From NCBI GenBank assembly GCA_902593735.1, contig CACJJL010000001.1:124001-188000 (forward strand): a DNA stretch of 64,000 bases, in the 5' to 3' direction. A model generated the notes under the pieces. The model did no database searches. It saw nothing but the letters and a program-made list of their open reading frames with translations, and was not told the origin of the DNA. Positions 44,257 to 48,260 of the stretch are shown here, piece by piece. Origin of the DNA: an uncultured SAR116 cluster alpha proteobacterium (GTDB lineage Bacteria > Pseudomonadota > Alphaproteobacteria > Puniceispirillales > Marisalimonadaceae). Made by a program: the position numbers and the translations under genes. Each line of letters begins with the position of its first letter. Position 1 is the first letter of the stretch.

Positions 44257-45552
44257 TTACTTTTTAAAATCTGGATAAGCTTCCATTCCAATCTCGGCTA
44301 AGTCAACACCTTCAAGTTCTTCTTCGGCAGTAACTCTAATACCTATTGTAAACTTAATTATATACCAGACGATTGCTGATGCTATAATTGTAAATGCACC
44401 GATGGCAAATATTCCATAGAGTTGAGCACCTATCGTAGCATCTGAATTTGAGAAAATAACTGCTATTGTACCCCAAATTCCAGCAAATAAATGTACAGGT
44501 ATAGCACCTACGACATCATCAATTTTAAATTTGTCAAGCATTGGTATAGTAAGTACAACAATTAATCCACCAACAGCACCTATAAAAATAGCTAGCATTG
44601 GAGATGGAGCTAATGGTTCAGCTGTAATAGCAACTAGCCCACCTAGTGCACCATTTAGTGCCATTGTTAAGTCTGTTTTCTTGTAAAATAACATTGTTAA
44701 AATAAGTGCTATTACAACCCCACCAGCTGCGGCAAGATTTGTATTAATATAAATATTTGATATAGCTGTTACGTCAGCTCCAGATCCCATAGCTAGTTGA
44801 GAGCCACCATTAAAACCGAACCAGCCAAACCAAAGTATAAATGTACCTAATGTGGCCAAAGGTAAATTTGAGCCTGGCATTGGATTTACACTTCCATCGT
44901 CAGAATATTTACCTTTTCTCGCACCTAATATTATTGCACCGGTTAATGCTGCCCAACCACCTACACCATGAACTATAGACGATCCAGCAAAGTCTAAAAA
45001 CCCGGCTTGGTTTAAGTACCCACCACCCCATGACCATGATCCTTGTATAGGATATATAAATCCACAAAGTAATACAACAAATACAAAAAAAGCTTTTAAT
45101 TTCACTCTTTCTGCTACCGCGCCACTAACAATTGAAGCAGCCGTTGCACAAAAAACCATTTGAAACCACCAATCTGAACCAGATGAATAAGTTGCATCTT
45201 TTTCGCCACCGAAAGTTGTACCATCAGATGGGCCCCAAATCGAAAAAGAACCTATATAACCTGAAACATCCATATACATAAGATTATATCCAACAATTGC
45301 AAACATAATACCGGCAATGGAATATAAACCAATATTTTTTGCACATTGAACAACTGCATTTTTTGCTCTCACTAAGCCTGTTTCCAACATACAAAAACCC
45401 GCAGCCATCAACATAACCAGAAATCCATGAACCAAGAAAGAAAAGGAATTCAATATATATGCTGTTTCAGCATCAGTTGCAGCAAAAGCTGAACCTGTAA
45501 TACTCATTATGATTGCAGGTATTAGTAGTAATAACCTGATTAAATTAGACAT
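44257..45552 (-). CDS. amtB: Ammonium transporter
   Basis: AGFCMLETGLVRAKNAVVQCAKN, FLDFAGSSIVHGVGGWAALTGAIILGARKGKY, WFGWFGFNGGSQL. Confidence 0.96.
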   Translation of the reverse strand: MSNLIRLLLLIPAIIMSITGSAFAATDAETAYILNSFSFLVHGFLVMLMAAGFCMLETGLVRAKNAVVQCAKNIGLYSIAGIMFAIVGYNLMYMDVSGYIGSFSIWGPSDGTTFGGEKDATYSSGSDWWFQMVFCATAASIVSGAVAERVKLKAFFVFVVLLCGFIYPIQGSWSWGGGYLNQAGFLDFAGSSIVHGVGGWAALTGAIILGARKGKYSDDGSVNPMPGSNLPLATLGTFILWFGWFGFNGGSQLAMGSGADVTAISNIYINTNLAAAGGVVIALILTMLFYKKTDLTMALNGALGGLVAITAEPLAPSPMLAIFIGAVGGLIVVLTIPMLDKFKIDDVVGAIPVHLFAGIWGTIAVIFSNSDATIGAQLYGIFAIGAFTIIASAIVWYIIKFTIGIRVTAEEELEGVDLAEIGMEAYPDFKK

Positions 45553-45731
45553 AATAAATCTCCGTTTAAATTAGTATTTATCGAAGATCTAATGAAATTT
45601 AGTTGATTAAAAGTGAGTAAGCGGAGGTGTAGTTCAGTAAATTAAAATTGATTAATAATTAAACACAAAATGGTGATAAAATTATACCTGATGAAAATTT
45701 ATGCATTTAATTACTCGTCAAATTTTGAAAT

Positions 45732-47222
45732 TTATTGATTTAACAAATTCGTTTCAGATTCTAATATTGAATTTAAAATATTAAAAATATAAATTTTTCC
45801 TTGATTAATTTGTGCTTTTAATGTTCCAAAATCTTTTTCGTTGGTTTCATTAATTAATAAAGATATTGCTTCATTTGGCAAGTTACTCTGGTTATTCACT
45901 GTAAAACAGATATTTACAATTTGGTCTAATTTAAAAAATAAGTTTTCTATTCGTTTAAATAACAAAAGTTTTTTATCTTTTTCATGTTGATCAATAAGGT
46001 TTGACTCATTTTCATAAAAAAATTTTAAAAATTCAATATCTCTTTGTCCACCTGCTACATATTTAGTTTCATACCATTTTGGCAGATTTTTTTTATCTAT
46101 ACTGTCTGTCTTAATATTTACTCTCATTTTTAACACTTCTTTTGCCATTTCTCTATCTGATATTGGGTATGTATTTAATTTATCTAAAAGATCAGTTATT
46201 TTTGTGCTAAATTTATTAACTGTAACAACACGAGTTTTTTTAAGTGCTAGTTTTTCCCAAGAAAAGGATTTATGAGTGTGATAATTTTTAAAATTGTCAT
46301 AAGTGCATGCAACAGGACCCCGATTTCTTGAGGGTTTTAACTTTGTATCAACTTCATATAAAATACCTTCATATGTTTTTGTAGATAATATGTTTATTAG
46401 TTGTCGAAATATATCTAAATAAATCTTTTTGTTATGTTCTCCATCATAAACAAAAACTAAGTCTAAGTCTGAATTAGCTGTCATTGTGAAAGTACCAAAT
46501 CTTCCATATGCTACTATGCAAAAATTTTCGTAATTAATTTTTGTTGAGTTATAAAATCTTGTTTTAATTATTTGTAAAACAAATTCTACGGTAGCTTGTG
46601 CTAAATAGGAAAATTCAGTTGAAGCTCTTTCAATGTTAATGTCTTTATTAATTAATGAATATAAAATCTGAAATTTCAGTAACCTATGTTGTTTTCTCGT
46701 TATATTTAAAATACTTTCAGTATCTAAGTAATCAAAATCAATTTTTTCAAAAAAATTCTTATAAAAAGAAATATTACCATTTAACCTTACTGCATACTCT
46801 GGTTGGATAACCTCTAGCAATTTTATATCTTTTGAAAGAATATCTGTAAGTAATCCTGAAAATGACAAGATCTTTGATAAATTTCCATAAATAAAAGTAT
46901 TATTTTTGATCATTTCTATGTAATCAAGATTTGAGTTTATGGAGTTAATAAATCTCAAAAGTTGATAAAGGCCTTCTTCTTTATGTTTCTTCCGAAAAAT
47001 AATTGGGACTATTTCTCTAAAAATCTTAGATAATTTTTCTTGAGTTTCAGAAGATAGATTGTTTACAAAAAAACTTTCAAATTGTCTTATGGTTGCATCT
47101 ATGTTTATCTTACTTACATTTTTTAATTTATTAATGATATTATTTTCAACTTCATTTATTTCTATTTCTTCATCATTTGCTAATGGCAAATTAATTGGTA
47201 AATTTAGTTTTTTATAAAGCAT
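45732..47222 (-). CDS. Half-length GlnE-like glutamine-synthetase adenylyltransferase (one nucleotidyltransferase domain)
   Basis: 496 aa; AYGRFGTFTMTANSDLDLVFVYD, LYEVDTKLKPSRNRGPVACTYDNF...WEKLALKKTRVV, GGQRDIEFLKFF. Confidence 0.78.
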   Translation of the reverse strand: MLYKKLNLPINLPLANDEEIEINEVENNIINKLKNVSKINIDATIRQFESFFVNNLSSETQEKLSKIFREIVPIIFRKKHKEEGLYQLLRFINSINSNLDYIEMIKNNTFIYGNLSKILSFSGLLTDILSKDIKLLEVIQPEYAVRLNGNISFYKNFFEKIDFDYLDTESILNITRKQHRLLKFQILYSLINKDINIERASTEFSYLAQATVEFVLQIIKTRFYNSTKINYENFCIVAYGRFGTFTMTANSDLDLVFVYDGEHNKKIYLDIFRQLINILSTKTYEGILYEVDTKLKPSRNRGPVACTYDNFKNYHTHKSFSWEKLALKKTRVVTVNKFSTKITDLLDKLNTYPISDREMAKEVLKMRVNIKTDSIDKKNLPKWYETKYVAGGQRDIEFLKFFYENESNLIDQHEKDKKLLLFKRIENLFFKLDQIVNICFTVNNQSNLPNEAISLLINETNEKDFGTLKAQINQGKIYIFNILNSILESETNLLNQ

Positions 47223-47306: not shown

Positions 47307-48260
47307 ATGGACCTAGATAATTATTTATTGAAAAATTCTAAAGAAAAAGAGATTTCATCGATTGTAAAATCATTAGCTAATGCTGCAATAAGAATATCTA
47401 ATACTATCAGAGATATTAAACCACAGGAAAGTAAATCAAAAATTGATACCAAATTAAATTCAGATGGTGATATTCAAAAACCATTAGATATAATCTCAGA
47501 TGAAATTTTAATTACTTTTCTAGAAAAATCTCCTGCCGCAGGGTATGCCTCTGAAGAGCAAGAAGGATATATTGACTTTAAAAATAATAATAATTTCATT
47601 GTTTTAGCTGACCCGCTTGATGGATCAAGTAACATTGATGTAAATGTTTCAATAGGTACCATTTTTTCTATAATGTCTAAAAATAATTTACCATTAGAAA
47701 AAGCATTTATTCAAAATGGAAGTCATCAAAAATCATCAGGATTTTTTGTTTATGGGCCACAAACAACTTTATTTATTACAGTTGGTGTTGGAACATCTTT
47801 ATTCGCATTAGATGAAAAACAAGGTAGATTTATCTTAATTAAAGATAATATTACAATACCAGAAACAACTACTGAATTTGCAATAAATGCTGCATACAGA
47901 AGATTTTGGGACAACGCTACATTAAAATATATTTCTGAATGCCAGAATGGAGAAAGTGGACCTAGAAAGAAAAATTTTGGAATGAGGTGGGTTGGTTCAT
48001 TAGTAGCAGATGCTAGTAGAATCTTTAATAGAGGAGGTGTTTTTTTATACCCTTCAGATTTGAGAGAAAAATATAAAAATGGAAGGCTAAGATTGACTTA
48101 TGAAGCAAATCCAATTGCTTTTTTAGTAGAGCAAGCTAATGGAAAAGCTACTGATGGTCATAAAAATATATTAAATTTAGAAGTTAACGATTTACATCAA
48201 AGATCACCATTGATTTTTGGTTCTAAAGAGGAGGTGTTAAAATATAAAAAATCCTATTAA
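47307..48260 (+). CDS. fbp: Fructose-1,6-bisphosphatase class I
   Basis: ADPLDGSSNIDVNVSIGTIFSI, ATDGHKNILNLEVNDLHQRSPLIFGS. Confidence 0.95.
   Translation: MDLDNYLLKNSKEKEISSIVKSLANAAIRISNTIRDIKPQESKSKIDTKLNSDGDIQKPLDIISDEILITFLEKSPAAGYASEEQEGYIDFKNNNNFIVLADPLDGSSNIDVNVSIGTIFSIMSKNNLPLEKAFIQNGSHQKSSGFFVYGPQTTLFITVGVGTSLFALDEKQGRFILIKDNITIPETTTEFAINAAYRRFWDNATLKYISECQNGESGPRKKNFGMRWVGSLVADASRIFNRGGVFLYPSDLREKYKNGRLRLTYEANPIAFLVEQANGKATDGHKNILNLEVNDLHQRSPLIFGSKEEVLKYKKSY

Follow-up and report, generated by a model that had tools for sequence, protein, structure and literature searches.

A half-length glnE gene lies on the reverse strand of the window, the stretch of 64,000 nucleotides from an uncultured SAR116 bacterium that we analysed, with amtB as the next gene downstream and fbp as its divergent neighbour (Table 1). 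The reading frame opens with ATG, and its 496-residue product (half-GlnE) carries a single PF03710 nucleotidyltransferase domain (Pfam; E=1.1e-32, 113.9 bits against a curated cut-off of 24) as well as the motifs SDLDL (residues 251-255), YEVDTKLKP (289-297) and GGQRDIEF (391-398). On both the number of domains and the motifs quoted from the 496 residues, the preliminary description of this DNA was right. Canonical GlnE is a protein of about 950 residues with an N-terminal deadenylylating domain (AT-N, the AR half) and a C-terminal adenylylating domain (AT-C, the AT half). Half-GlnE does not have this two-halved build of AR and AT domains: it reached 169 bits with the NCBIfam models of bifunctional GlnE, far under their cut-offs of 487-724, and covered only positions 466-859 of the 946 in PRK11072 (NCBIfam), which correspond to the C-terminal half.

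Table 1. Features of the half-length glnE locus, in positions of the window
Feature	Position	Strand	Evidence
amtB, next gene downstream, same strand; pairing in each of the family's four genera	44257..45552	-	gene order
glnE-amtB spacer, 179 bp, palindrome-like element near 45649-45665	45553..45731	.	
Half-length glnE (496-aa single-domain protein, AT-C type, probable GS adenylyltransferase)	45732..47222	-	sequence, profiles, tree, model
Third catalytic Asp (D292), invariant in family	46347..46349	-	alignment
Catalytic DxD (D252, D254), invariant in family	46461..46469	-	alignment
Thr248, at position of AR-essential Asn169; AT-type residue	46479..46481	-	alignment
PF03710 nucleotidyltransferase domain, residues 114-335	46218..46883	-	Pfam
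fbp, divergent neighbour, context only	47307..48260	+	gene order

The fbp start codon at 47307 leaves 84 bases between the starts of the two genes, and the claim that the missing half has no room before fbp therefore holds. Nor does the argument need fbp: in four related genomes (G009, G021, G023 and G049), where two other genes separate half-glnE from fbp, the length of the half is unchanged. Two additional genes between half-glnE and fbp are seen at loci L074, L080, L082 and L085, in some genomes of genera g1 and g3. Close pairs of half-glnE gave dN/dS values of 0.10-0.29, and the gene is therefore maintained. Half-glnE is an intact gene under purifying selection.

We searched 136 genomes of the order Puniceispirillales for PF03710. 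Forty of them, from all four genera of the window's SAR116 family (f1), had one such domain in frames of about 500 residues; complete frames in this family encode about 494-528 residues, and in genus g4 the start codon appears to be TTG. Families f3 and f4 of the order had two PF03710 domains in long frames. Full-length GlnE in close relatives, which had been named as a possible sign of local assembly error, was present only in other families, and in f3 and f4 its gene stands at another locus than half-glnE. Assembly error is ruled out, since four genera share half-glnE and many of the 40 genomes come from single cells (for example, AG-390-L20, AG-426-I14 and SCGC AAA536-G10). We also rejected true loss of glnE in those f1 genomes that seemed to lack it: the contigs of G045, G027, G053 and G060 stop at fbp, that of G022 stops slightly past fbp within the neighbouring gene, and in the remaining glnE-lacking genomes checked fbp was likewise not found.

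A wider sample comprised 398 Pseudomonadota genomes with a completeness of 95% or more, the window's own excepted. PF03710 was found in 379 of these, in two or more copies everywhere but in the window's genome and in G597; the latter was rejected as a second natural one-domain GlnE, its gene being severed by a contig end. When a half-GlnE profile was run across the class, all but the window's own among the matches listed (stronger half) lay in frames of about 700 residues or more. We found no account of a natural single-domain GlnE in the searchable literature, outside which most subscription papers fall, and a 2025 study of SAR116 mentions neither GlnE nor glutamine.

Half-GlnE is the C-terminal adenylylating (AT) half of GlnE, a conclusion on which profiles, tree and the residue at the Asn169 position agree. 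In the PDB it matched the AT-C structure of E. coli (3k7d, E=5e-20) better than the AT-N structure (1v4a, E=1.8e-8). AT-C and AT-N profiles made from the order's full-length GlnE proteins scored 180-211 bits for the C half against 78-101 bits for the N half, and hhalign aligned 459 columns with the former and 280 with the latter. The domain alignment with both halves that had been proposed thus favours the C half, as does the rest of the evidence on the suggestion that the motif was nearer to the C-terminal domain. In a maximum-likelihood tree the half-GlnEs grouped in a single clade (100/100), which fell on the AT-C side (100/99) at the end of a very long stem (1.98 substitutions per site). 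The AlphaFold model (mean pLDDT 88.4, pTM 0.90) had 3k7d as its top Foldseek match (E=8e-17, TM 0.66), with 1v4a close behind (E=1.5e-14); therefore, the fold by itself does not decide between the two halves.

Asn169 is essential for AR activity and dispensable for AT activity (PMC4454073). Half-GlnE has Thr248 at this position, invariant in 36/36 family sequences aligned. Full-length GlnE of the order has Thr here in its AT domains and Asn in its AR domains, and the E. coli AT domain has Gly. At the position of the AR-specific Arg221, half-GlnE has Glu290, like AT domains. The Asp triad D252/D254/D292 is invariant in all 36 sequences; beside the third Asp, genus g4 differs at the residues equivalent to E. 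coli R756 (G or A) and G759 (V).

An AT-N profile run on 58 f1 genomes matched only half-GlnE itself and, weakly, GlnD. A split gene with its AR half elsewhere was therefore rejected, and the second gene for the N-terminal half that the preliminary description had named as a refutation was not found in these genomes. The most complete f1 genomes (G049, 100%; G044, 99%; G009, 95%; G015, 93%) have only one place with PF03710.

The other members of the GlnD-PII-GlnE-GS cascade are retained in f1, where PII proteins, full-length GlnD and type I GlnA occur; the genome search for partners that had been called for recovered GlnD, GlnB and a glnK-like gene, and GlnB keeps Tyr51 of the T loop. The window's own genome (84% complete) gave no match to glnA, and the glutamine synthetase (GS) substrate is for this reason inferred from relatives. 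When GlnA loci were compared (L043-L069, L189, L190), the adenylylation site M-D-x-D-L-Y-E-L-P was found in 20/20 f1 sequences examined. The adenylylated tyrosine is followed by Glu in all 20, whereas Asp follows it in the sequences examined from f2, f3 and f4; this weakly suggests co-change. We rejected the tyrosine as proof of the target, since it is also kept in f2: in five incomplete genomes of that family (G001-G005) the PF03710 search did not detect GlnE, and GlnD was found in 3/5, PII in 3/5 and GlnA-like matches at 3-9 per genome. None of the f1 genomes had an NtrC match above the family cut-off; the best matches scored about 335-390 bits, comparable to the second, NtrX-like match of other families, suggesting that NtrBC control was lost in f1.

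Across f1 the genes keep the order gdhA / amtB / glnE / fbp / tkt. Half-glnE lies upstream of amtB wherever examined in the family, including genera g2 and g4. In the f3 genome G063, glnK stands immediately before an amtB whose product shares 59% identity with the AmtB of the window, and in f1 this place is taken by half-glnE. The position upstream of amtB suggests that the modifier may be made together with the ammonium transporter. A second, divergent Amt also occurs in f1 (L155-L158), about 29-30% identical to that of the window; in G015, G048 and G009 its gene forms a pair with a glnK-like PII gene.

We consider half-GlnE to be probably a monofunctional GS adenylyltransferase, consisting of the AT-C half and the preceding helical segment without the AT-N (AR) half. 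The best reading of these sequences is a natural unidirectional adenylyltransferase that would have been derived once, by loss of the AR half and relocation beside amtB, after which its sequence would have changed in a burst. When nitrogen is sufficient, half-GlnE would be stimulated by unmodified PII, by glutamine or by both, the stimulated enzyme would AMPylate the GS tyrosine, and GS activity would fall. Reversal by phosphorolysis would lie beyond GlnE's own reach. If GlnE cannot undo AMPylation, active GS would have to return via new synthesis with dilution or turnover, or by another route. The broader proposition is that the whole family runs the GlnD-PII-GlnE-GS cascade one-way, with GS AMPylated and never enzymatically re-activated, recovery coming only from new GS synthesis, and the modifier encoded beside the ammonium transporter; to this we would give slightly less than an even chance.

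Half-GlnE is homologous, over nearly its full length, to the AT-C half of the bifunctional GlnE (GS-ATase, 946 residues) of E. coli. The Asp triad and the cascade partners are common to both, whereas half-GlnE lacks AT-N (AR), is about half as long, has a shortened C-terminal helical region and is encoded at amtB. It descends from the AT half of GlnE and would work like it, and its nearest functional analogue is probably the engineered unidirectional adenylyltransferase (uAT). Such uATs are C-terminal GlnE fragments that adenylylate GS strongly and one-way in Azospirillum and Azorhizobium (PMC9249168). Like them, half-GlnE has an AT domain without an AR domain, and its AR half was not found elsewhere in the 58 f1 genomes; unlike the uATs, half-GlnE is natural, fixed in a family, long diverged and set in its native regulatory surroundings. 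The earlier interpretation is partly supported: its structural part holds, and the one-way or differently reversed GS modification that it proposed, which matches engineered C-terminal-only GlnE, would be the best available account. Strong overexpression of uAT appears detrimental (PMC9249168), so that the natural form would need some restraint, be it through PII, through its level of expression or through a lower activity; the long stem branch may record an adjustment of this restraint. The N-terminal domain of DrrA/SidM and MntA-type nucleotidyltransferases, which gave weak Foldseek matches, have the fold and DxD motif in common with half-GlnE, but their structural overlap is far smaller, their targets are others and there is no sequence relation at this depth.

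Three other explanations were weighed against a one-way enzyme acting on GS. A single domain could be bidirectional, AMPylating GS and removing the modification at one and the same active site, either by pyrophosphorolysis or by a newly gained phosphorolysis, under a PII/PII-UMP switch. GlnD, PII and Tyr51 are kept, so that the PII-UMP signal persists, the long stem would allow a gain of function, and a paper of 1970, to judge from its title as cited in PMC12409994, reported that the adenylyltransferase reaction is reversible. However, Thr replaces the AR-essential Asn169 in every half sequence compared, Glu290 is AT-like at the Arg221 position, and engineered proteins with the AT half alone act in one direction in vivo (PMC9249168); we consider bidirectionality unlikely. 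Re-activation of GS modified by half-GlnE might otherwise fall to an unrelated deAMPylase encoded elsewhere, for example of a phosphodiesterase/phosphatase fold. DeAMPylases of other folds are known in other systems (review PMC12409994), and on the AT-N search of the 58 f1 genomes GlnE-like sequences are unable to supply the activity; we consider such a partner improbable.

The third explanation takes half-GlnE off GS, either to AMPylate another partner (a PII protein or an AmtB-associated factor, for instance) or to act as a non-enzymatic regulator. The stem of 1.98 substitutions per site means that its target or control may have shifted; its new site beside amtB is one where relatives carry glnK, the residues near the active site are divergent in g4, and the GS tyrosine is present even in f2, for which no GlnE was detected, so that it does not prove a GS modifier. 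Nevertheless, the invariant Asp triad argues for catalysis, GlnD, PII and GlnA are all retained, and the Glu that follows the GS tyrosine in f1, against Asp in f2-f4, hints weakly at co-change, so that a departure from GS has a low probability in our estimate.

The reversible adenylylation cycle of GS is a textbook covalent switch. A lineage that keeps the inactivating half and the upstream signalling, minus the re-activating half, suggests that this cycle can open in nature. As a one-way adenylyltransferase, half-GlnE would be nature's equivalent of the engineered uATs by which ammonia release is brought about, and it lets one ask how a free-living ocean bacterium copes with one-way control of GS.

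The surroundings of glnE were also scanned for regulatory elements. Promoter-like sites were no more numerous there than in shuffled sequence, and no terminator was found in the same region. The spacer before amtB contains an AT-rich, palindrome-like element of the TGATTAAT..ATTAATCA type, which, allowing at most one mismatch, occurs at only two places in its own genome and is possibly an operator. Similar palindrome-like elements are present in the glnE-amtB spacers of many relatives (L070-L089).
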